The notes beneath the pieces are model-generated. The model saw nothing but the letters and a program-made list of their open reading frames with translations, ran no database searches and was not told where the DNA came from. A DNA stretch of 49,025 nucleotides from an uncultured Eubacteriales bacterium (GTDB lineage Bacteria; Bacillota; Clostridia; Christensenellales; CAG-314): assembly GCA_949289125.1 (NCBI GenBank), contig CASEME010000009.1:1-49025 (forward strand), read 5' to 3'. Positions 4,298 through 43,397 of this stretch are shown here, in pieces. Positions within the stretch are counted from its first letter, which is position 1; each line of letters begins with the position of its first letter. The translations under genes were made by a program, and so were the position numbers.

Positions 4298-7200
4298 ATG
4301 AAACTACATAGCGTGGAAGCCGTTAATCGTCAAACGGGTAAAAAGCAAGTATTTACTTTTGGCACGGGCGCAAGTCCCAACAAGTTGGTGCTTACGCAAA
4401 ACGATTTGGCTGACAAATACCTCAAATTTTGTTTGTGCGGCGACGTACAGTGTGACGAAGACGTATTCGTACGTTTTAGCGTAGACAACATCAAATATGT
4501 GCTAAAACGTTATCATGGTTCACAAGGCACATACATGCAATTTCAAAAAATTACTGACGATGAGGTGGAGCTAATTGCCGAGGGCAACGACGTACCTGCT
4601 TTGTTGGAAGAGTTGCTGGGAATGAGCCCTGCTGCACTTTTGGCAAACGATTTTGTAGAACAAAGCAAAGTTGATGCGTTTGACGGCAACCTCAATGTGT
4701 TCCGTAGCGTAGAGTTGTTGCGTGACATAATAGGCAGTGCCAACAAAGAGACAGCAGAGCTTACCGAAAAGTGCGAAGACATCAAACGCAAGATGGACGA
4801 AATTACCAATTCGGAGCAACACCTGTCCAACAAAAAACAGTTGGAACAAGCCAATCAACAGTTGAGAGAGACTTCCGAAGAGTTGCTTCAACTTACCGAA
4901 CGTCTTAATCAGCTCAAAACACAACAGGCAGAGTCTACTGTTACAACGCAACTGTTGAAAGAGTTGGAAAAACTTCAAACTACTTACCGCGTATTGTCCG
5001 AGCAGAAAGAGGCTGTAGAAGAACAGCGTGAAAGTCTGCGCAGATACGACAATGTAATGGCGGTGCTTCCCAAAGTAGAGAGAGAAAAAATACTGCAAGA
5101 GGCTGTTGCCGAATGTGAACACGAGCGTGACGAGTTTGCTAACGATGTTCAATTTCAGGAAAGTGAGCTCAACACTATTGAACAGCAGTGGTTGGAAAAA
5201 CAGCAGAAGTTGGATATTGTTGCAGATAGAAAACGCCGCATTGAGATAATCAATGCAGAGATTGCTACTATTGGTGATTTGCAATCACGCAACGATGAGC
5301 TCAAACAAAAGTTGATGGAGCTCAACGACCAAGCAGAGCAGATAGAGGCAGAGCGCGCACAGCTTAAACAAAAACTCAATGTTGTTGAGGGCAAAATTAC
5401 TGAGGCGCGTGGCGGCATGGACAGTGTGCAGTTCCCCAATCGTTCGGTAGGCGAATTGTTGGATATGGTGCGCATTGGCGTTATGATCGACGAAGTGAGA
5501 AAACAGCGCGATCAGGTGCAAGCCGAACTGACAGAAAAAGAACAGCAAATTAACGAAAAAGAAAATATATACCTTTTGCAACGCAAACGCTTTAAGTCCG
5601 TTGCAGAATTGGACGGCAATATCACGCCTGTCAAAGCAAAAGACACCATTTTGCAAGTTTTGGACGCTCGTTACAACAAGTTGTTGTTAATCAACGATTC
5701 GTTGACATCCAAAAAACGCAACTTGCAACGTGCAAAGGAAGACTACGACCACAGATTGCTTGAGCTCGAACACAGCAAAAACTTGCTCGACAGAGAAGTA
5801 AACAGACTGCGTCTGTGCAAGCAGGAAGAATTTAAGCGTGAAGTATTGCTCAACAGTCAAAAACTGTACACACAAGGTGAAGGTAGCGTATATGCGGCTA
5901 CTACCGACATTACCGATCAGGAAGTGGCTACAGTTATGCAAGATTCGGAAAAACGTCTTGCCGACTACGAAGTACTGCTTGCAAAACGCAGTGAAGTACA
6001 GGGACGTTTGGACGAAATTGTACGCCAGATAGAGATTAACGAAGCCGATATGGCGGCTTTGCGTCAGGAAAAGACAAACATCAACAACCGTTACAACGAG
6101 ATAGTTACTCGCAACCGCAACGATGACGTATCCAATTACCTCAAAGCGTTGGAGAGCAACAACGGTACACAGTACTTGTTGCAAGCGCAAGAAGATACGG
6201 TGCGTAACGACGTAGAGTTGAAGCGTTTGAGAGGGGACGTGGAAGACTTGCGCACACAGCTTGGCGCTTTGAAAGCAAGACTCAACCACTTGGAAGAAAC
6301 ACAACAACAAATGGAAGACAGCTCCAGCACGCTTGAGCAGTTTATCGGCACTAACGACCGTGTTAAGGAAGAGTTGTGCGATATGAGCGAGCGTATGGCA
6401 TCGAGCTACGAACAATACAAATCGTTGACTACACAGCTTGAACAGTTGGACAGCAACTTTGTGCGTGTACAGGCTTCCATTATGGAGCACAACAGAGCTA
6501 TTCAGGCTAACGAGGAAGGTATTCAAAAGGCTACCGAACATGCAAAAGAGGTAGCAGAAAAAGAAAATTATGACCTTGCTTTGTCTGAGTTCAACTACGA
6601 GATTAACAGCTTGCAAAGCGAAACCGACCAACTTACAGACTCCCGCTATACAGTGGAAAAAGAGTTGTTTGGCAAAAAGGTTACTTACGAAAAGTTGCTT
6701 TACACATACGGTCAGTTGAAGAGCGAACTTGACGATGTAAGCCGTGCTTTGGAAAGCGAAATGGAAAAACGCGGTATCACGCAGGAAGACATTGAGCAGT
6801 ACAAAGACCAAAAGGACAGCACAGAGTTGCGTGAGGCTATCGTAGAGTACGATGAGCGTTGCAAAAAGATTGCAGAAAGAATTGACAGAAACTACAAACT
6901 GTTGCAACAACAGCCCGAAAGTGCAATTACTGCTGCACAAAATCTTGACAAAGACATTGCAGATACGCAAGCCCAGATTGATGCAAAAACAGCAGAAAAG
7001 GCAGAGCTTGAACAAAAATGCAATGATACGATGCAACACTATGTGGCTTCCAACAATACCAAGTTGCATTATGTGGCAACGGCTACCGAGGCAGGCAGCA
7101 TGAAGACAATGCGTAGTGCAATACGCAAAAACAAGATGGTATTGGTACTTGCGCAAGACAAGTTGAAGTGGATACTCAACGGTGCACAGCGTTATTTGCG

Positions 7201-7471
7201 TATATTTACAGGTGAAGAGTACTTTGTAGATATGGACAACTATGGTATGCTTAACTTGCGTTTGGGCGACAAAACGTGGAGTTATGCTCAGTTGGACGCA
7301 AGTCTCAAAGTGCAAGTATATCTGAGCTTGATATTCGGCGTACCTCAAAGCGAAGAGACGCGTTGTAGCTGGGTATTGCTTGACGAAGGACTTGACATTG
7401 ACAAGCAAGAATTGCAGACTATGATGAGCAAAGTTGTTGACTTTGATTGTGTAATAGCTTTGGAAAACTAA
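4298..7471 (+). CDS. Rad50/SMC-like coiled-coil protein with degenerate ATPase head
   Basis: A 1057-residue protein organised like Rad50/SbcC/SMC: a short N-terminal head half, a very long coiled coil (about residues 145-920) and a C-terminal head half. The head is odd. The N-terminus begins like Rad50, and FVEQSKVDAF near residue 120 resembles the Rad50 segment around the Q-loop, but the expected P-loop GxxGxGKS/T is missing; only GTGASPNK is there. Near the C-terminus the ABC signature is degraded (QLDASLKVQVYLSL), while a Walker B with D-loop is clear (WVLLDEGLDID). A mid-coil break near residues 510-545 could be the hinge; there is no CxxC zinc hook. Start ATG at 4298 follows GGGGGAG. It is divergent from dnaD-dnaI, suggesting a chromosome-maintenance role (inference). 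No nuclease partner adjoins it. Confidence 0.7.
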   Translation: MKLHSVEAVNRQTGKKQVFTFGTGASPNKLVLTQNDLADKYLKFCLCGDVQCDEDVFVRFSVDNIKYVLKRYHGSQGTYMQFQKITDDEVELIAEGNDVPALLEELLGMSPAALLANDFVEQSKVDAFDGNLNVFRSVELLRDIIGSANKETAELTEKCEDIKRKMDEITNSEQHLSNKKQLEQANQQLRETSEELLQLTERLNQLKTQQAESTVTTQLLKELEKLQTTYRVLSEQKEAVEEQRESLRRYDNVMAVLPKVEREKILQEAVAECEHERDEFANDVQFQESELNTIEQQWLEKQQKLDIVADRKRRIEIINAEIATIGDLQSRNDELKQKLMELNDQAEQIEAERAQLKQKLNVVEGKITEARGGMDSVQFPNRSVGELLDMVRIGVMIDEVRKQRDQVQAELTEKEQQINEKENIYLLQRKRFKSVAELDGNITPVKAKDTILQVLDARYNKLLLINDSLTSKKRNLQRAKEDYDHRLLELEHSKNLLDREVNRLRLCKQEEFKREVLLNSQKLYTQGEGSVYAATTDITDQEVATVMQDSEKRLADYEVLLAKRSEVQGRLDEIVRQIEINEADMAALRQEKTNINNRYNEIVTRNRNDDVSNYLKALESNNGTQYLLQAQEDTVRNDVELKRLRGDVEDLRTQLGALKARLNHLEETQQQMEDSSSTLEQFIGTNDRVKEELCDMSERMASSYEQYKSLTTQLEQLDSNFVRVQASIMEHNRAIQANEEGIQKATEHAKEVAEKENYDLALSEFNYEINSLQSETDQLTDSRYTVEKELFGKKVTYEKLLYTYGQLKSELDDVSRALESEMEKRGITQEDIEQYKDQKDSTELREAIVEYDERCKKIAERIDRNYKLLQQQPESAITAAQNLDKDIADTQAQIDAKTAEKAELEQKCNDTMQHYVASNNTKLHYVATATEAGSMKTMRSAIRKNKMVLVLAQDKLKWILNGAQRYLRIFTGEEYFVDMDNYGMLNLRLGDKTWSYAQLDASLKVQVYLSLIFGVPQSEETRCSWVLLDEGLDIDKQELQTMMSKVVDFDCVIALEN

Positions 7472-11274: not shown

Positions 11275-13455
11275 ATGAAAAAGGCAAAACTATTGGTTGC
11301 ATTGTTGCTTGTGCTTGTTATGGCATTGCCGTTGGCACTTGCTGCATGTAACAAGACGTCTCCTGTCGACGATAAAGACATCGTAGAAAGAACAGATTAT
11401 ACTTCTGTCTACGATAAGATCGGCAAAGATGTTACAATCGACATGGTTGAAGAAGGCGAAAACGGACTTGCTTATGTCACTGTTGATGGAGTTAAGTACG
11501 AACTCGGTATGGATTTCTTGTCTATGGCAATGGTATACAATACAACACCCATTGAAGACAATGAAGCTTACGACACTGCTGAAGAAATTTACAACGAGTG
11601 GTGGAAACTGTACATCTTGAGATGGAACTACCTTGTTCCCGAAGTACCCCTTTACTCCAACACATACTATGATGTTTACAATGCAAAAATTGGCAATTTC
11701 GTGACTACACCTTATTGGGCTCCGTCTGATGCTATTGTTGCAGCTACATCTACAGATGGCAAAGTAATAATGGGTGACACAACTGAACTTTCCGGTTCTT
11801 TCCGTAACAGCTCTTTCGGTAAGACAAGCCCTGGTGCTGGTGACCTTGCTGTTCAGGGTCTTACATCTGGTTATTCTACCGTTGTAACAGATCAAGAAGG
11901 TGCATTTGGTTGGGCAGATACAAGTATCGTTAAGTCTCACGAAATGACACAAAACAAAGATGGTACATTGACATTTACCATTGAAATTGCAAATGGCTTG
12001 AAATTTAGCGATGGTAGTGCAATCACAGCTAAAAACTATGTTGCAAGTATACTTGCATACAGCAACCCTGTTATGGGTGAAGCAGGTGGTACTACTTCTA
12101 CAGGTATGTACTATGTTGGCTATGATAGCTTTGTAAAGAACACTACTGGCGGTAAAGATGCTGTATTCTCTGGCGTAAGACTGTACAGCGACAATGCATA
12201 CAAATTCTCTTTGCAGGTATCTGCAGATTATGCTAACTACTATTATGTAGACTTGTATGCTTCTGTAAGTCCTGTTCCTATGAAGTTGTACTTTGGTACA
12301 TACGACATCAAAGATGATGGCAACGGTTGCTACATTGAAGAAGGCTTCTACGCTACCGAACAAAAAGACGGTATCAAAAGCTACACAATGGCAGCTACTA
12401 TCGAGAAAAATGTTCACAACACAGATCCTACAGCTATTCCTTATTCTGGTCCATATATAGTATCTAAGTGGGACGAAAGCAATAGTGAAGCTACTCTTAC
12501 ACTTAACACCAATTACAAGGGCGACCACCGTGGTCAGGCAACTATCCAAACAATAGTATATCGTCTTATCGTTTCTGAGACACAGCTTGACCAGTTGAAG
12601 AAGGGTGAAATTGATATCTTGGCAGGTGTTACAGGCGCTACAGACACAGAAGCTGCTTTGGCAGTAGTAGACAACGTTAAGTTCAAAGAAACTCACTATG
12701 ACCGTGCTGGTTATGGTAAGTTGGCATTTGTTTGCGACTTTGGACCTACACAGTTTACATCTGCAAGACAGGCTGTTATGTATTCTATCAACCGTCCTGA
12801 CTATGCTCAAACATTTACAGGCGGTCACGGCTCCGTTGTTCATGGTCCGTACTATACAGGTATGGCTGCTTATGTAGCTAACGCTGACGAATTGGAAGCA
12901 AAACTCAACACATACGAATTTAACGTAAACAAAGCTAACGAAGTTTTGGACGAAGGTGGTTGGGTATATAACGAGAAAGGTGAGACTTTTGACGCTACCA
13001 AAGACGCTGTTCGTTACAAGAAGTTGAGTGGTTACGAACTTTCTTATGACAACCTTCACTTTGCATCTACCGATGGTAAGTATAAGACAGTTAAAGTTAA
13101 CGGCGAATACTATATGCCTTTGGTTATCAACTGGATGGGCACACAGCCTAACACAGTTACCGACTTGTTGATTACTGCTTGGCAGACAAGTGCTAACTCC
13201 ACAACTAAGATTGGTATGTACATCACCTATACATCTGGTGACTTCAATACCGCTTTGTACGGAGAATATTATCAGATGTCTGCTTACGGATTCAGCGGAA
13301 CAGCAACATACGGTGCAGTTAACTTTGCAACAGGCTTCACAAGTACAGTGTATGATCAATCTTACTACTGGACAATCAATCCTGATATGTATGCTGACTA
13401 CAACAGCAACCTTATGATGGATGAAGCTGACTTCTATGCTAACTACAGCAAATAA
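11275..13455 (+). CDS. oppA: Oligopeptide-binding lipoprotein (ABC importer, SBP family 5)
   Basis: The extracellular peptide receptor of the importer encoded downstream. The 726-residue precursor begins with a lipoprotein signal ending in LALAAC (Cys25), so it would be lipid-anchored outside the membrane. The core reads as a family-5 solute-binding protein: NGLKFSDGSAITAKNYV near residues 240-260, the usual marker segment, and repeated aromatic-rich segments to the end. At 726 residues it is longer than typical OppA (540-600); the excess is mostly in the first 200 residues. Start ATG follows GGAGG at good spacing. Two overlapping hairpins separate it from oppB, a common way to make more receptor than permease. 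The bound ligand cannot be read from sequence. Confidence 0.9.
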   Translation: MKKAKLLVALLLVLVMALPLALAACNKTSPVDDKDIVERTDYTSVYDKIGKDVTIDMVEEGENGLAYVTVDGVKYELGMDFLSMAMVYNTTPIEDNEAYDTAEEIYNEWWKLYILRWNYLVPEVPLYSNTYYDVYNAKIGNFVTTPYWAPSDAIVAATSTDGKVIMGDTTELSGSFRNSSFGKTSPGAGDLAVQGLTSGYSTVVTDQEGAFGWADTSIVKSHEMTQNKDGTLTFTIEIANGLKFSDGSAITAKNYVASILAYSNPVMGEAGGTTSTGMYYVGYDSFVKNTTGGKDAVFSGVRLYSDNAYKFSLQVSADYANYYYVDLYASVSPVPMKLYFGTYDIKDDGNGCYIEEGFYATEQKDGIKSYTMAATIEKNVHNTDPTAIPYSGPYIVSKWDESNSEATLTLNTNYKGDHRGQATIQTIVYRLIVSETQLDQLKKGEIDILAGVTGATDTEAALAVVDNVKFKETHYDRAGYGKLAFVCDFGPTQFTSARQAVMYSINRPDYAQTFTGGHGSVVHGPYYTGMAAYVANADELEAKLNTYEFNVNKANEVLDEGGWVYNEKGETFDATKDAVRYKKLSGYELSYDNLHFASTDGKYKTVKVNGEYYMPLVINWMGTQPNTVTDLLITAWQTSANSTTKIGMYITYTSGDFNTALYGEYYQMSAYGFSGTATYGAVNFATGFTSTVYDQSYYWTINPDMYADYNSNLMMDEADFYANYSK

Positions 13456-13593: not shown

Positions 13594-13622
13594 TATAAAC
13601 AAAACAAAATTTGGGAGGACGT

Positions 13623-14639
13623 ATGGCTAAATATATTTTGAAGCGTATTTTGTACATACTGCTCGTATTTATCATACTGTCGTTTTTGGTGTTCAGTATT
13701 TACAACATGATACCTAACGACAAAGCTGCGGCTGCAGCAAGAGAAGAAATAAAAAACAACAATAAGCTCAATTATGAAGAGCGTTATTTGTATTGGCAAC
13801 GTCGCTATGGTTTGGACGGTAATCTTATACAACGTTATTTGAGATGGCTTGGTCTGTATCCTTTTTATGACGGTTCATACCAAGGTATGTTGCAGGGTTA
13901 TCTCGGTACTTCTATTACGCAAGGTAGACCTGTTTCAGAAGTAATTGCCGAACCTATGCAAAACACAATATTCATCAATATATTTGCCACAATCCTCGCA
14001 CTCGGTATTACTATACCTTTGGGTATTTTCTGTGCGGTAAAACGTGGTAGTAAGCGTGACCTTGCCGTGCAAGTGGGTACCATTGTTGGATACAGTACAC
14101 CGGTATTTATAATAGCTATACTGTTTATTTGGTTATTTTCGGTAGTATTAGGTATATTCCCTGTATCCGGTATGGGAACTCCAGGTGCTGATTATACAGG
14201 TTTCCGCTGGTTTATTGACAGAATGTATTATCTTGCGTTGCCCCTTATTGTTATGACGTTCTGCTCTCTTGGCGGCATGACAAGATATGTGCGCGCCTCT
14301 ATGATAGAAGCACTTTCTTTGGACTGTATTCGTACGGCTCGAGCTAAGGGCGTAAAAGAACAAGTTGTTATTTATAGCCACGCTTGGCGCAATGCTCTGA
14401 TACCTATCGTTACCCTTGTTATCGGATGGTTTTTGAGTATTTTCTCTGGTTCTATAATGATTGAGAATATATTCGGACTTAACGGTGTCGGTAAGGTATA
14501 TTATGACGCATTGAACAACAATGACAATGAGGTAGTGCTTGCATTGCAGATGTTCTACATCTTTATTGCACTTGCAGGCAACCTTGTGATTGACTTGGCA
14601 TATGGATTTATTGATCCGCGTATTCGTATATCTAAATAA
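13623..14639 (+). CDS. oppB: Oligopeptide ABC importer permease OppB
   Basis: First membrane subunit of the peptide importer. The 338 residues show an N-terminal helix typical of OppB/DppB (MAKYILKRILYILLVFIILS), an extracytoplasmic loop, and five further helices of the binding-protein-dependent transport domain. The cytoplasmic EAA-like coupling loop is near residues 235-265 (SLDCIRTARAKGVKEQVV), which contacts the ATPases. The start chosen is ATG at 13623 with GGGAGG nine bases upstream; a TTG twelve bases earlier is in frame but overlaps that site. Length and motifs are normal for the family, in contrast to OppC and OppF of the same operon. Confidence 0.93.
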   Translation: MAKYILKRILYILLVFIILSFLVFSIYNMIPNDKAAAAAREEIKNNNKLNYEERYLYWQRRYGLDGNLIQRYLRWLGLYPFYDGSYQGMLQGYLGTSITQGRPVSEVIAEPMQNTIFINIFATILALGITIPLGIFCAVKRGSKRDLAVQVGTIVGYSTPVFIIAILFIWLFSVVLGIFPVSGMGTPGADYTGFRWFIDRMYYLALPLIVMTFCSLGGMTRYVRASMIEALSLDCIRTARAKGVKEQVVIYSHAWRNALIPIVTLVIGWFLSIFSGSIMIENIFGLNGVGKVYYDALNNNDNEVVLALQMFYIFIALAGNLVIDLAYGFIDPRIRISK

Positions 14640-14654
14640 GGAGGTGGCTGACTG

Positions 14655-17123
14655 ATGGCTAACAAAAAAGATAATCAAGAAAATAAAGTCGTTAATCCAA
14701 CCACCGAAGTTACTTCTGAAAAACAAACTAAAACGACTACAAGAAAAACAACTTCAACAAGTGCGACAAAAAAGTCTGGTACAACTTCTTCAACTAAGAC
14801 AAGTACTTCAAGTGCTTCCAAAAAGTCTTCAGCTGTATCAAGTAGTACAAAGAAAGCAACATCGACAAGTACAAAGAAGTCATCATCTACAAGTGCAAAG
14901 GCTGCTAAATCTAAGACTTCTGAGCGTGTGGAAGCTAATGAAGAAACAAAGTTGGTTGCAGAACAAACAGTTGAAACAACAAACGCGCCAGAAAGCATAG
15001 TGGATGTAAGCAATGTAGAAGCTGCTGAAGTTGAAGTGCCTGCTGCAGATATGGAGTCAGTGGTTGAGAAGGCAAGCCTTGAAGTACCTACAACTCCTAT
15101 GGGGCTTTCTGAGCAACCTTTGCCAATGGCAGAGAAAGCGAAAAAAGAACCTGTGGATCCAATGAAAGATGATGGTTTTTGGGCAAAATGCAAACACGGT
15201 TTGTCCGTGGCAGGCAACGCATGCGTCAACGCAGGCAAAACTGTATGGCGTTGGACAAAGCGTACCTTTATGGGTGCAAGCAAGGAACTGACTGATGATG
15301 AAAAGTTCCGTGTGGAAAATATCGAAAGTCCTGCCAAACAGATGGTTAAGACTTTTATGCGCAGAAGGGTGGCTATTGTTGCTCTCGTTGTATTGATATT
15401 GATGTTTGCGTTGGTGTTTATTGGTCCGTTGTTTGTACCTATGGACGTCAACTATACAGACGCATTGCAGCAGAATATTGCGCCAAACTATTCAATGCGC
15501 AAAGTGCCCAATGCACTGAAAAACGATATTAAAAGTATATCAGGATTTTCCAATTTTACTGTAGGTGTTAGCAATAGTGGTGGTTTGTACATATGGGGCG
15601 ACACAAAACTTCGTGTGCAAGGCATCAATCTTGCCGATTTCCCCGAAGAGATTACTGGTGATAATGTGGCTTTTGCTGCAGCTGGTAAAGACCATATAGT
15701 TGCTATTACAACCGATGGCAAAGTAGTTTGTTGGGGTAACTCTACTAATGGTCAGTTGGGAGATAAGACCGGAACAGGCATATTGAGTATGCCCGAAGAA
15801 TTGAAAAACGGCACCATTGATGTCAACAATGTTAGACAAGTGGTTTGCGGTTATCAGGCAAGTGCCATCGTTATGAAAGACGGCACAATCTACGTTTGGG
15901 GTAACACCAATACTGTTACTAATATGTCTTACTTTGTAGGTAAGCAAGATGTTGCAAAAGTTGCTTTTACCAACAGTACTTTGGTTGCAGTTTTGGAAGA
16001 TGGAACATTTACTGCTGGTAATTCCAACTCGTTTACATCTGTTGTATCGTCCAAAGGTACTGTCACAGGCAAATTGAATACATATTTGCAGGGCAAAAAA
16101 GTAGTTGACGTAGCTGCTACTAACTACTCAATAGCTCTCGTGCTTGATGATGGTGAGTTGGTGTTGTCTGGTGCATTTTCCGATGATATAGACCTTATTC
16201 CCGAACTTCCCGAAGGGGAAACATTTGTCAAAGTAGTGGGCGGCACTCGTCACTTTGTTGTATTAAGTAGTGCTAACAAGGCTTATGGCTGGGGACATAA
16301 CTTCTATGGTCAGTCCGGTTTTTCCGGTGTGGAAAATGTAAGCGATATTTATGCAGGCTCACTGCAAACCTACCTTGTGGGCGACAAAGACAATCTTACC
16401 AATTCTTACGGATTGAAAGGTTATCTTATGGGCACAGACTCTATGGGACGTGATATATTTACCCGTATTATTCACGGCGGTAAGATGACCATGACAGTAG
16501 GTGCAGTTGCGGTTATTGTATCTTCGATTATTGCTATTATAGTTGGCTGTGTATCAGGATACTTTGGCGGCTGGGTGGATATGTTGCTTATGCGCATAAC
16601 CGAAATTTGTTCGGCTATACCTTTCTTGCCGTTTGCTATGATGCTGTCCCTTGTTATACGCAACTACAATGTTAGCGAAACAATGCGTATAGTAATAATA
16701 ATGATAATGTTAGGCTTGTTGTCTTGGCCCAGTCTTGCACGTATGATAAGAGGACAAGTGCTTGCCGAACGTGAAAAAGAGTTTGTTATTGCTGCAAAAG
16801 CAATGGGTATCAAGGAAAGTCGAATAGCTTTTAAGCATATTTTACCTAACGTTATATCGGTAATATTAGTAAGTATGACGTTGGACTTTGCGGGCTGTAT
16901 GTTGACTGAGTCTTCACTGTCCTACTTAGGTTTTGGTGTTCAGCAACCGCAACCTACATGGGGTAATATGCTAAATGGTGCTAACAACAGTATTGTCATT
17001 CAAAATTATTGGTGGCAATGGTTGTTCCCTGCATTATTCCTTGCAATAGCTACTATATCTATCAATATCATTGGTGATACGTTGCGCGATGTAATGGATC
17101 CCAAGAGTACTCAGGATAAGTAA
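14655..17123 (+). CDS. oppC: OppC-type permease with inserted RCC1 beta-propeller and long low-complexity N-terminus
   Basis: Second membrane subunit of the importer, but 822 residues against about 300 normally. Order: residues 1-95 Ser/Thr/Lys-rich low complexity; 95-165 acidic, Val/Glu-rich; 165-235 basic, linking to transmembrane helix 1 (about 238-260, VAIVALVVLILMFALVFIGP); 290-583 six RCC1-type repeats and a partial seventh, marked by LYIWGDT, VVCWGNSTNGQLGD, IYVWGNT and YGWGHNFYGQSGF; then the OppC motif GTDSMGRDIFTRII at about 592-605 and the five-helix permease core with coupling loop AAKAMGIKESRIAFKHI near 715-731. The frame is unbroken and codon use matches the neighbours. The propeller would sit outside the membrane next to OppA. 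Start ATG follows AAGGAGG. Confidence 0.9.
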   Translation: MANKKDNQENKVVNPTTEVTSEKQTKTTTRKTTSTSATKKSGTTSSTKTSTSSASKKSSAVSSSTKKATSTSTKKSSSTSAKAAKSKTSERVEANEETKLVAEQTVETTNAPESIVDVSNVEAAEVEVPAADMESVVEKASLEVPTTPMGLSEQPLPMAEKAKKEPVDPMKDDGFWAKCKHGLSVAGNACVNAGKTVWRWTKRTFMGASKELTDDEKFRVENIESPAKQMVKTFMRRRVAIVALVVLILMFALVFIGPLFVPMDVNYTDALQQNIAPNYSMRKVPNALKNDIKSISGFSNFTVGVSNSGGLYIWGDTKLRVQGINLADFPEEITGDNVAFAAAGKDHIVAITTDGKVVCWGNSTNGQLGDKTGTGILSMPEELKNGTIDVNNVRQVVCGYQASAIVMKDGTIYVWGNTNTVTNMSYFVGKQDVAKVAFTNSTLVAVLEDGTFTAGNSNSFTSVVSSKGTVTGKLNTYLQGKKVVDVAATNYSIALVLDDGELVLSGAFSDDIDLIPELPEGETFVKVVGGTRHFVVLSSANKAYGWGHNFYGQSGFSGVENVSDIYAGSLQTYLVGDKDNLTNSYGLKGYLMGTDSMGRDIFTRIIHGGKMTMTVGAVAVIVSSIIAIIVGCVSGYFGGWVDMLLMRITEICSAIPFLPFAMMLSLVIRNYNVSETMRIVIIMIMLGLLSWPSLARMIRGQVLAEREKEFVIAAKAMGIKESRIAFKHILPNVISVILVSMTLDFAGCMLTESSLSYLGFGVQQPQPTWGNMLNGANNSIVIQNYWWQWLFPALFLAIATISINIIGDTLRDVMDPKSTQDK

Positions 17124-17136
17124 GGAGGTTTAGCAC

Positions 17137-18153
17137 ATGTCATTATTGGAAGTAAAAAATCTTCATACTTATTTCAAAACGCGTAAAGGTATTGTTAAAG
17201 CTGTCAATGACGTTACTTATTCTGTAGAAGAGGGCAAAACCTTGGGTGTTGTAGGAGAAAGTGGTAGTGGCAAATCTGTCTCTGCAATGAGCATTTTGCA
17301 GTTGTTGGATGGTAACGGATATATTGCCGATGGAGAAATACTATTTGAAGGACAAGATCTTACAAAAGTAAGCCTTCAAGAGATGTACCACATAAGAGGC
17401 AACAAAATTTCCGTCATCTTCCAAGAACCGATGACAAGTTTGAACCCTGTGTTTAATATTCAGCGTCAGTTGAGTGAGCCGTTTATTATTCACCAAGGAA
17501 TGAACAAAAAAGAAGCTGCAGAAAAAGCAGTTGAGATGTTGCGAGCCGTTCAGATTCCTAACCCTGAGGCAGTAGTCAAACAATACCCTCACCAGTTGTC
17601 TGGCGGTATGCGTCAACGCGTAATGATTGCTATGGCATTGGCGTGCAAACCCAAAATTTTGATAGCAGACGAGCCTACAACTGCTTTGGACGTTACGATA
17701 CAAGCACAGATACTGCATTTGATGAACGAGTTGCAGAGAGAAAATGGTACTTCAATCATATTCATTACTCACGACTTGGGCGTTATCAATGAAATGGCAG
17801 ACGATGTTGTGGTTATGTACTGTGGTCAGGTGGTGGAAAAGGCGTCGGCACGAGTTATTTTTTCTAACTGCAAAGTAAGCCATCCTTACACCGAAGGTTT
17901 GATGTATTCTATACCTCGTATAGATAACATTACAGACCGACTTGAACCTATCCCTGGTGCTGTTCCGCACCCTCTGGCATTGCCAAAGGGTTGCAAGTTT
18001 GCTCCTCGTTGTAAATATTGCACACAACGTTGTATGGAAGAAGAGCCCGAACTCAGAGAGGTTGCACCCAATCAATTAGTTAGATGTTTTTATCCTGACA
18101 AGGAGGTGAGAGAAAGTGCCGAACACAAGAAAAAAGTTGTTGTCCATAACTAA
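17137..18153 (+). CDS. oppD: Oligopeptide ABC importer ATPase OppD
   Basis: One of the two ATPases that power the importer. The 338 residues carry Walker A GESGSGKS (about 39-46), a Q-loop at FQEPMTSLNP, the signature LSGGMRQR (about 153-160), Walker B LIADEPTTALD (about 175-185), the switch His in ITHD, and the C-terminal oligopeptide-transporter extension with its cysteine cluster (CKFAPRCKYCTQRC), which in relatives binds an iron-sulfur cluster. All catalytic residues are present. Start ATG follows AAGGAGG. Its 3' end overlaps the oppF start by 38 bases, so translation is probably coupled. Confidence 0.95.
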   Translation: MSLLEVKNLHTYFKTRKGIVKAVNDVTYSVEEGKTLGVVGESGSGKSVSAMSILQLLDGNGYIADGEILFEGQDLTKVSLQEMYHIRGNKISVIFQEPMTSLNPVFNIQRQLSEPFIIHQGMNKKEAAEKAVEMLRAVQIPNPEAVVKQYPHQLSGGMRQRVMIAMALACKPKILIADEPTTALDVTIQAQILHLMNELQRENGTSIIFITHDLGVINEMADDVVVMYCGQVVEKASARVIFSNCKVSHPYTEGLMYSIPRIDNITDRLEPIPGAVPHPLALPKGCKFAPRCKYCTQRCMEEEPELREVAPNQLVRCFYPDKEVRESAEHKKKVVVHN

Positions 18154-19783
18154 TCTGAAAAAATACTTTCCCATCGCCAAGTCGAGCATATTCCAAAAGG
18201 AACAGCTTTATGTAAGAGCCAACGAAGACATTAGCTTTGATATATATGAGGGCGAAACGATAGGTATCGTTGGCGAATCTGGTTGTGGAAAATCCACTTT
18301 GGGACGTGTTATTTTGCAGTTATATGAGCAAACTGCAGGTAGTACTATGTATTATGGTCGTAGCCGTTCCGACCTCGCACCTAAATATGTTGCACATACT
18401 CTCAAGTATGCTGCAAAATATGTAACAAAATATAAACAAGCCAAAGAAAAGGCTGAGAAGCTGACCGCAGAGTGTGAGGCAGCAGGTGATGATGCAACAT
18501 TTTTTCAGTTGCAGGACAAAAACCTTGCTGTTGCCGAAGCAAAGACTGCATTGCACAACGTAGTTACCATCTTGGGCGGATTCATTGTGTTAGAAGACAT
18601 AAGTGAGGGAGCAACGGTATTGCTCAATCGTCACAATGTGCATGTAGCAATGGCAAAGATTCGCCATAAGTTGGAAGAGTTGCATGCTAAGGAAGACTTG
18701 GCAGAGTCCAAACTTGGCGAAGCGGAAAAAGACAGCAAAAAAGCCATTGCACTCGCAAAGCGCGTGGAAAAAATTAAGGCTGCAATCAAAACAAATGAGG
18801 AAACTCTTGTAAAACTCGGAGAAGAAAGGGTAAAGTTTAGACAACAACTTATCGATCTCAAAGAAAAATACAAGGATAACGAAGAATTTCAACGCTACGA
18901 TGCTATGATTGATAAGGGCATTGACTTGGCTCGTCTCAATTACAACGAAATGCGTCAGTTGCGTAGAGATTTGCAGATAATTTTTCAAGATCCGTATTCT
19001 TCGCTCAATCCCCGTATGACGGTCGGTCAAATTATAGAAGAAGGTCTTGTAACGCATAATTTCTTCAAACATGGCTCTCCCAAAATGAAAGAGTATATTT
19101 TGAAGATAATGAATGAGTGTGGTCTGCAAGATTATATGATTCACCGTTATCCGCACCAATTTAGTGGCGGACAACGTCAGCGTATATGTATAGCACGTGC
19201 GTTGGCGGTGCAACCTAAGTTTGTGGTGTGTGACGAATGTGTGTCGGCGTTGGACGTGTCTATTCAGTCACAGATTATCAATCTGTTGCTTGAATTAAAA
19301 GAGCGCGACAATCTCACTTATTTGTTTATTTCACACGATTTGTCGGTAGTGCGCTATATTTCTGACAGAATATGTGTTATGTATTTGGGCAATGTGGTAG
19401 AGTTTGCCGATGCAAAAGTATTGTTTGAAGATCCTCGACATCCCTATACATTGGCATTGCTGTCAAGTATACCTACCACCGATATGGAAAGCCTTAAAAA
19501 AGAGCGAATTTTGCTTGAGGGTAATATTCCAAGTCCTATCAAGCCGCCTACAGGTTGCAAATTCCATACTCGTTGCTATATGGCGACAGAACAATGTAAG
19601 CGTGTACCGCCGCCTTTGGTTGAAGTGGCGCCAGGACATTTAGTTGCTTGCCATAATCTTGATAAAAAGGTTGATGGAAAAGGTAATTATTTGTTCAAAC
19701 TCAAAAAGACGGCAAAACTCGCAAAGTCTACGGAGGCAACAGCCGATGCTAAGGTGGAGAAAGACGCTGAAAAAGGCGAGTAA
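18116..19783 (+). CDS. oppF: Oligopeptide ABC importer ATPase OppF with a roughly 205-residue insertion
   Basis: Second ATPase of the importer, 555 residues against 310-330 normally. Walker A GESGCGKST is at about 53-61. Between about 78 and 282, where normal OppF has a short linker, lies a Lys/Glu/Ala-rich helical segment with coiled-coil character (for example KRVEKIKAAIKTNEETLVKL). The ATPase then resumes as in ordinary OppF: Q-loop IIFQDPYSSLNP (288-299), signature FSGGQRQR (about 349-356), Walker B VVCDECVSALD (Cys where Pro is usual), switch His ISHD and the C-terminal cysteine-containing extension. All catalytic residues remain, so it should work. Start GTG at 18116 has AAGGAGG upstream and lies within the end of oppD. 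Confidence 0.92.
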   Translation: MPNTRKKLLSITNLKKYFPIAKSSIFQKEQLYVRANEDISFDIYEGETIGIVGESGCGKSTLGRVILQLYEQTAGSTMYYGRSRSDLAPKYVAHTLKYAAKYVTKYKQAKEKAEKLTAECEAAGDDATFFQLQDKNLAVAEAKTALHNVVTILGGFIVLEDISEGATVLLNRHNVHVAMAKIRHKLEELHAKEDLAESKLGEAEKDSKKAIALAKRVEKIKAAIKTNEETLVKLGEERVKFRQQLIDLKEKYKDNEEFQRYDAMIDKGIDLARLNYNEMRQLRRDLQIIFQDPYSSLNPRMTVGQIIEEGLVTHNFFKHGSPKMKEYILKIMNECGLQDYMIHRYPHQFSGGQRQRICIARALAVQPKFVVCDECVSALDVSIQSQIINLLLELKERDNLTYLFISHDLSVVRYISDRICVMYLGNVVEFADAKVLFEDPRHPYTLALLSSIPTTDMESLKKERILLEGNIPSPIKPPTGCKFHTRCYMATEQCKRVPPPLVEVAPGHLVACHNLDKKVDGKGNYLFKLKKTAKLAKSTEATADAKVEKDAEKGE

Positions 19784-41552: not shown

Positions 41553-43397
41553 ATGAAGAAAAGCATTAAAGTTCTTGCGCTGGTTATTGCAGTAGTGATG
41601 GTACTGTCCATATTGGCAGGCTGTTCGCTGTTCGGCAAAGAAATGGCTAAATATCGCAATCAGACTATGCTTATTGTAGGCAACGAGCCTGTCAGTGTAG
41701 GCGTAGTTATGGATCAGTTCAACAATTACTATTACAACTATTCTTCTTACATCAGCAGTGGTTATATGACTTTGAATGATTTGTTCTCCACAGTGATGGA
41801 CAGTATTTATACGTTGTATTCCAAGGTAGATTCGTACAAAAATGATGTAACTACGGTAAAATACACCGAAGAACAAAACCCGTACATTAAGTTGGGTTAC
41901 TACAGTGCGGAGTATCTTACCAAGAGCGAAATGGAATATGTGTTGCAGTATGTAAAGTACGGTCTGTTTACTTCCTTTGATATAGAAGTCAACAACTACA
42001 TTGCTCTCGAGATAGGCAAAATGCCCGAAGAGACAGAAGAGACAGACGACAGAGCTTTTTATGAGTACGACGATATGGGCACTGCTAAGACGTATGCCGA
42101 AAAGTTGTACAACGACAGCATCACATCGGAAGAGATGAATGAGTACTATGACAAGTACTACAACTTTGCTGAGTTTGATCGCAATTCTGCAGACTACAAC
42201 GACTACGTATTTGCCAACGCTCAACAGGCTCAGGCAAGAGTGGACTATATCAACGAGCAGCTCAAACAATACGTCATCGATGAGGAAGGCGAGAAGGACG
42301 AGTATCCTACAATAACTGCCGAGAAGTACATCGAGTATCAGAACAAGGCTATCAAAAAGCTTAATGAGCGTGTAACAGATACCTATGGTGCAGATCTTAG
42401 CAACTACTTTGTAGAAAGAGCAGAGTCTTCTATCATAACAATTATCAGCTACAAGTGGGATTTGAAACAATCGAGCGTAATAGAGCAAGATCAGGCTGCA
42501 TTGATTGACACGCTTACACAACGTTACAACAATGCAAAAGACGCATTTACAACTTCTATCAATGCCAACGTAGACAACTACATCACGTTTATAGAAGGTT
42601 TGTCTGATACAAGCTATATCTACAACGTTCCTACCCTCTATAAAGATAGTTATATCTTTGTCAAAAACTTGCTTATACCTTTTAGCGATGCACAAAAGGC
42701 AAAACTTGCCAACTATGCAACAATTTTGGGTTCTACAACAAGTGAAGAATATATCAAAGTACGCAATCAACTTGCTGCCGAGATAGTGGCAAAAGACTTC
42801 AACAACGACGAAGCAGAAGTGAGCGGTTTGTTTACCTATGATGCTGAGTTCAACAAAATACAGCTCGCTGGTGAGCTTGCATCGGCTTTGCCCAATGACG
42901 GTTCTGTCACTCCCGAATCGTTTGTAGAGCTTATGAAACGTTTCAACACAGATACAGCACAGCACTCTGCTTTGTACGAGTACGTTGTACGTGTGGACGA
43001 AACAACTCCTTCCGATTATCAAGCTAAGTGGGTACAAGAGTTTGTGGATGCAGCTTTGGAAGCAAAACAAGGTGGCTTGCATCACTACGGCATTGCAGTG
43101 AGCGAATATGGCGTACACATTGTATACTATTCGTCCGATGTTACCGCTTGGGATAGCTTTGATAGTAGCAGAATTTACGATACAAAGAGCAACGAATATC
43201 GTTTCCTCAAATCGTACTACGAAAGTGTTCAAACCAACATCAATACCGAAGCCGTAGAAAAGCTTAACGACGAATACAGATATGCAGGCAAAATTAAAGT
43301 TGTCAATTCTGAGTTGCAACAGTTGCTTAAGGACTTTGGCGTATCTTATGACTTTAATGCCGCTATGGTAAAACCCGAGGAAGACACCGAAGAATAA
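41553..43397 (+). CDS. PrsA/SurA-like peptidyl-prolyl isomerase lipoprotein
   Basis: An extracytoplasmic folding factor. The 614-residue precursor has a lipoprotein signal ending LAGC (Cys24). An N-terminal SurA-type segment follows (LIVGNEPVSVGVVMDQFNNY), then a long helical middle region rich in Tyr, Asn and Glu, and a parvulin-like block near residues 370-530 (FVKNLLIPFSDAQKAKL; GLHHYGIAVSEYGVHIVYY, the typical end of a parvulin domain). It is about twice the length of PrsA. In many Firmicutes a prsA-type gene lies directly after mfd, supporting the call. Start ATG follows TTAGGAGT. Catalytic competence of the isomerase domain cannot be judged by eye. Confidence 0.82.
   Translation: MKKSIKVLALVIAVVMVLSILAGCSLFGKEMAKYRNQTMLIVGNEPVSVGVVMDQFNNYYYNYSSYISSGYMTLNDLFSTVMDSIYTLYSKVDSYKNDVTTVKYTEEQNPYIKLGYYSAEYLTKSEMEYVLQYVKYGLFTSFDIEVNNYIALEIGKMPEETEETDDRAFYEYDDMGTAKTYAEKLYNDSITSEEMNEYYDKYYNFAEFDRNSADYNDYVFANAQQAQARVDYINEQLKQYVIDEEGEKDEYPTITAEKYIEYQNKAIKKLNERVTDTYGADLSNYFVERAESSIITIISYKWDLKQSSVIEQDQAALIDTLTQRYNNAKDAFTTSINANVDNYITFIEGLSDTSYIYNVPTLYKDSYIFVKNLLIPFSDAQKAKLANYATILGSTTSEEYIKVRNQLAAEIVAKDFNNDEAEVSGLFTYDAEFNKIQLAGELASALPNDGSVTPESFVELMKRFNTDTAQHSALYEYVVRVDETTPSDYQAKWVQEFVDAALEAKQGGLHHYGIAVSEYGVHIVYYSSDVTAWDSFDSSRIYDTKSNEYRFLKSYYESVQTNINTEAVEKLNDEYRYAGKIKVVNSELQQLLKDFGVSYDFNAAMVKPEEDTEE

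Follow-up and report, generated by a model that had tools for sequence, protein, structure and literature searches.

An Opp-type importer of Clostridia with an RCC1-type propeller inserted into its OppC permease

How ABC importers hold and release their binding proteins is known mostly from transporters with small outer loops, together with the well-studied MalF-P2 domain, a non-propeller fold that lies between TM3 and TM4. In the maltose importer, this inserted domain of MalF contacts the binding protein MalE (PMC3150292), and MalE is reported, in a reference given within that paper, to bind P2 of MalF and P1 of MalG. In DppABCDF of Escherichia coli, a scoop motif in the TM1–TM2 region of DppB occupies the cleft of DppA at the outer face, and the main differences between DppB and DppC lie in TM1 and in the TM1–TM2 and TM3–TM4 regions (PMC12136057). 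BLIP-II, the nearest solved bacterial propeller to the domain described below, is a tight, secreted binder of another protein (PMC9218822; entry titles). Natural circular permutation of a binding protein has been described for a Treponema sugar-binding protein and its Gram-positive relatives, with tethering proposed as a reason (PMC4990184).

Here we describe an oppABCDF operon from an uncultured Eubacteriales bacterium in which the OppC permease carries an RCC1/BLIP-II-type propeller, inserted after transmembrane helix 1. Positions are those of the window, that is, the whole stretch of 49,025 nucleotides that was analysed. Such an importer is apparently undescribed so far, as nothing relevant was found in the open-access literature on RCC1 together with OppC or oligopeptide permeases, or on propellers in ABC importers. 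The earlier note on this DNA, which knew of no ABC importer whose permease contains a propeller, is thus consistent with that literature, from which most subscription journals are absent.

Organization of the operon

The five genes all lie on the forward strand. oppA (11275..13455) encodes a lipoprotein substrate-binding protein of 726 residues (SBP_bac_5, 7.5e-31), which is circularly permuted as described below. It is followed by oppB (13611..14639), a permease of ordinary length whose alignment with E. coli DppB covers the full length, scoop-motif region included, then by oppC (14655..17123) and by the ATPase genes oppD (17137..18153; Pfam ABC_tran and oligo_HPY) and oppF (18116..19783). 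Pfam thus places SBP_bac_5, BPD_transp_1 and two ABC_tran/oligo_HPY genes beside oppC, and the substrate of this Opp-type importer is, going by sequence, probably peptide.

OppF itself carries an insert of about 190 residues in its ABC domain (~18377–18949), which stretches the 137-position ABC_tran profile across aa 37–376; the insert is charged and probably helical or coiled-coil. In most propeller operons OppF is long (510–590 aa), and in several of the deer-gut group it has just ~345–365 residues. Elsewhere in the window, a frame downstream of mfd (transcription-repair coupling factor) encodes a putative lipoprotein of 614 residues (41553–43397) that gave no Pfam match at 0.01, and a 1,057-residue long coiled-coil protein, SMC/SbcC-like by eye (4298–7471), gave no Pfam family above cut-off.

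Domain order of OppC

The oppC frame runs for 822 residues without a break. Its first 224 residues (14655..15326) form a low-complexity cytoplasmic extension rich in Ser, Thr and Lys; alignment lengths show that this extension exceeds 200 residues in this genome and measures 20–100 residues in most relatives. The OppC_N segment with transmembrane helix 1 follows at aa 225–277 (15327..15485; PF12911, 9.1e-10, 38.7 bits against a cut-off of 23.9). Next comes the propeller, at aa ~279–588 (15489..16418), in which RCC1_2 scores 87.4 bits (3.7e-25; cut-off 22) and RCC1 25.8 bits (cut-off 21.7); WD40_RLD, matched from aa 284 onward, reaches 109.5 bits and stays under its own cut-off of 150. The permease core with the remaining transmembrane helices and the coupling region (aa ~589–817; 16419..17105) completes the chain, with BPD_transp_1 at aa 627–817 (PF00528, 3e-33, 115.5 bits against 26.4).

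The protein is thus an OppC by its OppC_N and BPD_transp_1 domains, its full permease fold and its operon partners, and its insert is an RCC1/BLIP-II beta-propeller by RCC1 repeats above the curated threshold and by seven predicted blades. The Pfam RCC1 model has a single location in the source genome, namely this frame. Among the NCBIfam permease models listed, none reaches its cut-off on this frame, the best being Opp4C with 302 of 350 bits, so that automatic annotation probably gives just a plain permease or a protein with RCC1 repeats.

Fold of the propeller

Residues 205–822 of OppC were modelled with AlphaFold2 from a 49-row alignment of homologues. The model has a mean pLDDT of 87 and a pTM of 0.80, and most of the insert exceeds 90 when read in blocks of ten residues. 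DSSP assigns seven blade signals to the predicted insert, most at a pLDDT of at least 90 and usually with three strands per blade. The strands span aa 292–315 in blade 1 (15528..15599), 338–361 in blade 2 (15666..15737), 393–417 in blade 3 (15831..15905), 433–447 in blade 4 (15951..15995), 483–506 in blade 5 (16101..16172), 524–547 in blade 6 (16224..16295) and 564–586 in blade 7 (16344..16412), the last of which leads nearly straight into the GTD..GRD motif of OppC. The structure prediction that the earlier note had called for therefore contains the propeller, with seven blades. Its description of six repeats and a partial seventh was right about RCC1 repeats and fell short in the count: the model shows a full seven, with blade 4, the most degenerate in sequence, the hardest to read.

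The closest fold match is BLIP-II (1jtd_B), with which model residues 75–373 align at Z 27.1 and an rmsd of 2.4 over 252 residues (VIA alignment). UVR8, RPGR, HERC2 and RCC1 come next, Foldseek is concordant, and identity of the propeller to these solved members is ~17–25%. Residues invariant in the insert are chiefly Gly, Trp, Pro, Gln and His, at positions like those of the RCC1 consensus.

Insertion site and topology

Without the propeller, the model superposes on E. coli OppC (8z21_B) at Z 31.0 and an rmsd of 2.3 over 278 of 278 residues, and it spans the entire OppC of both E. coli and Mycobacterium tuberculosis (Z 29–31). In the sequence alignment, E. coli OppC breaks off at residue 77 and restarts at 81; the propeller, with ~310 residues, thus replaces about three. 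The short loop that had been taken as normal for OppC holds for E. coli (~3 residues) and does not hold for the many clostridial OppCs whose non-RCC1 inserts reach several hundred residues.

The hydropathy peak of TM1 lies at aa 239–257, with five Lys/Arg residues before it and none after, which should put the propeller outside the cell. The TM1–TM2 region is likewise outside in the homologous OppC proteins of E. coli and M. tuberculosis. The propeller is therefore very probably extracellular, as the earlier note had proposed from membrane topology. By pseudo-symmetry, we infer that its location in OppC would correspond to the scoop region of OppB.

The same first outer loop holds non-RCC1 inserts of ~150–400 residues in other clostridial OppC/DppC-like proteins (loci L009, L010, L020, L026, L114, L116, L127, L128 and L129), some of them with internal repeats. 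Four OppCs with such inserts were scanned with Pfam, and nothing besides OppC_N and BPD_transp_1 rose above cut-off. Because enlarged first outer loops occur in many clostridial OppCs, the loop seems to accept or to favour additional domains, the propeller being the recognisable case.

Distribution and origin

All of the approximately 50 non-redundant relatives examined share the architecture, and the order oppA-B-C-D-F is conserved in propeller loci wherever the flanks extend far enough. Relatives with the full architecture span several genera and families. Further OppCs with RCC1 repeats turned up in samples of the order (33 of 396 genomes, with matches at 1e-49 or better), the class (17 of 391, two of these carriers being single-contig genomes) and the phylum (9 of 299, seven of the nine outside the class). 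When named genomes were searched with the insert only, 30 of 32 loci were full OppC proteins; their carriers are mostly gut Clostridia known from metagenome-assembled genomes (MAGs), joined by the isolate Clostridium sp. Cult1. Two distant loci with low insert scores and short frames, L062 (actinomycete; 548 aa) and L063 (Bacteroidetes MAG; 468 aa), were left out of the family. The insertion of an RCC1-type propeller into OppC is thereby backed by Pfam profile, by predicted fold and by some 50 homologues. Chance repeats are ruled out by the profile and fold scores; the insert model scores ~170–566 bits, always within a long, OppC-sized frame (33 of 396 genomes), which is far beyond chance.

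In a tree of the permease core, which is unrooted, a branch with support of 100/99 separates all 52 propeller-bearing proteins from the rest; long branches adjoin it (a warning given by the tool). A propeller-less sister was sought with a core-only profile in the 391 genomes of the class, and no intermediate was found: every core scoring at least 320 bits bears the propeller, and the next ones drop to 280 bits. Loss of the propeller was not seen within the clade. The simplest reading of a single clade with no propeller-less relative is one insertion that was retained since, and by these sequence comparisons the propeller was apparently inserted into OppC once.

Circular permutation of OppA

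Profile and alignment show a circular permutation in the OppA encoded here. Residues 78–157 (11506..11745, forward strand), which correspond to the C-terminal part of related OppAs and of PDB 9p48, match the profile of the C-terminal segment built from 10 relatives in propeller operons (4e-24), and aa 101–154 match residues 502–555 of 9p48. The remainder, aa ~160–719, matches residues 44–636 of the relatives with its order kept. A segment that is C-terminal elsewhere is thus N-terminal here, with the rest of the protein in order.

Among 26 propeller operons, 16 have the permuted order and 10 the ordinary one (for example L045, L047, L049, L055 and L061, which served as non-permuted comparisons). 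Permuted and ordinary orders form separate groups on the core tree, consistent with a single permutation event. The predicted model of the permuted OppA is of low confidence (mean pLDDT 67; 16-row alignment), and binding-protein chains align with this low-confidence model from about residue 140 onwards, at Z 14–16.

Possible roles of the propeller

We favour, with a probability of roughly 0.5, the reading that the propeller is an extracellular docking clamp that holds OppA at the pump, a proposal drawn from predicted topology, position, the habits of the fold and co-divergence. The propeller would stand outside, next to where the substrate enters, and would clasp one lobe of the lipoprotein OppA. 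OppA so clasped would stay at the pump, and the propeller would aid its orientation and sealing while peptide is transferred, much as the unrelated MalF-P2 acts on MalE. Five observations make this reading the preferred one: the scoop contact of DppB, the analogy with MalF-P2, protein binding by BLIP-II, the joint inheritance of the propeller with the oppA-B-C-D-F order and the co-divergence of propeller and OppA.

Co-divergence was assessed in 26 complete propeller operons by partial Mantel tests, in which the pairwise distances are non-independent. Propeller distances follow those of OppA (r 0.89, partial r 0.68) and show far lower partial correlations with the permease core of their own chain (0.16) and with OppB (0.12); the values for OppD and OppF (0.27 and 0.34) are significant and below that for OppA. 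When two subsets are taken separately, OppA again ranks first in each (partial r 0.69 and 0.33). This pattern could also stem from both proteins being on the cell exterior and fast-evolving. The earlier note had set the propeller at the docking face for OppA; the homologous Dpp, Opp and Mal systems and the co-divergence speak indirectly for that placement. The data do not separate the roles which that note had offered (filtering, tethering or presenting peptides, or sensing a surface ligand), and a protein–protein clamp for OppA has the best support. Two points count against a clamp: the scoop region of OppB is ordinary, which leaves no evident need for another docking element, and the propeller, being variable in sequence, could serve just as well as a shield or for adhesion.

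A scaffold that docks on something else at the surface (for instance a cell-wall polymer, an S-layer protein or a cell-surface peptidase) and would site the pump by a source of peptide is a possible role that we regard as rather unlikely. RCC1-type propellers do bind diverse protein partners (BLIP-II, UVR8, HERC2 and RPGR complexes occur among the fold matches), and this one is predicted to be extracellular and is variable; against a scaffold, its divergence follows OppA best, and no conserved partner gene beyond oppABCDF was identified in the loci, where the opp genes alone were sought.

A wider reading, about as tentative and if anything slightly more so, would extend the clamp to a remodelled class of importer. 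OppA would need the propeller as its clamp or gate, the altered geometry would have accompanied the permutation of OppA that moved the membrane anchor, and clostridial OppCs would generally receive accessory domains in their first outer loop.

It is improbable that the propeller itself binds or senses a small ligand or peptide, gating transport or adding a peptide site. Its position near the entrance of the transport path and the general ability of propellers to bind ligands would suit such a sensor, but the invariant residues resemble the RCC1 consensus and form no obvious ligand pocket. Marginally more doubtful still is a shield or decoy that would keep bacteriocins, phages, proteases or antibodies away from an exposed importer. 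Other clostridial OppCs fill the same loop with different, non-RCC1 inserts, as if bulk outweighed fold, and the insert evolves faster than the core (mean identity 0.38 versus 0.68); retention across the clade, with no loss seen, is nevertheless more than a passive shield needs.

An assembly join or gene-model artefact, which the draft state of the source genome (29 contigs) might suggest, has a negligible chance of being the explanation in view of some 50 independent loci, the Cult1 isolate and the single-contig genomes. Close relatives lacking the insert, named beforehand as the sign of such a join, did not appear, and recurrence in dozens of related genomes marks a real pump design.

If the clamp reading is true, importers would have two independent ways to hold the binding protein, the second being this clade-wide propeller, in another subunit and with a fold known for protein binding. 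The propeller opens a testable question, namely whether such domains raise the affinity for the binding protein, steer the choice of peptide or serve another role at the surface, in gut bacteria with a possible dependence on peptides.

Comparison with known systems

E. coli OppBCDF (8z21) and DppABCDF (8z1v–8z1z) and M. tuberculosis OppABCD (8j5q–8j5t) have the same permease fold, the same OppC_N/BPD_transp_1 domains and the same operon partners as the importer described here; the clostridial OppC differs by its propeller of ~310 residues where E. coli OppC has about three. With BLIP-II (1jtd), UVR8, RCC1 and HERC2 the propeller has RCC1 repeats and seven blades in common, at a compact size near that of BLIP-II, and it differs from all four in being nested within a membrane transporter subunit. 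As an extracellular bacterial domain, it is not expected to act in nucleotide exchange of the Ran type.

The permuted OppA has its counterpart in TpMglB-2 (Tp0684) of Treponema pallidum, likewise a naturally circularly permuted, tethered binding protein (PMC4990184). TpMglB-2 is a sugar binder of cluster B, whereas the OppA here is an SBP_bac_5 protein, and the permutation of OppA is thus a separate event.

A possible functional parallel is MalF-P2: there, too, the permease of a type I importer has a folded domain set into one of its extracytoplasmic loops, the arrangement that prediction and homology give for OppC. MalF-P2 has another fold and occupies another loop, and is thus an analogue of the OppC propeller and not a relative. 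By this analogy the propeller may act like MalF-P2, yet as a separate kind of domain and not as a member of that class.
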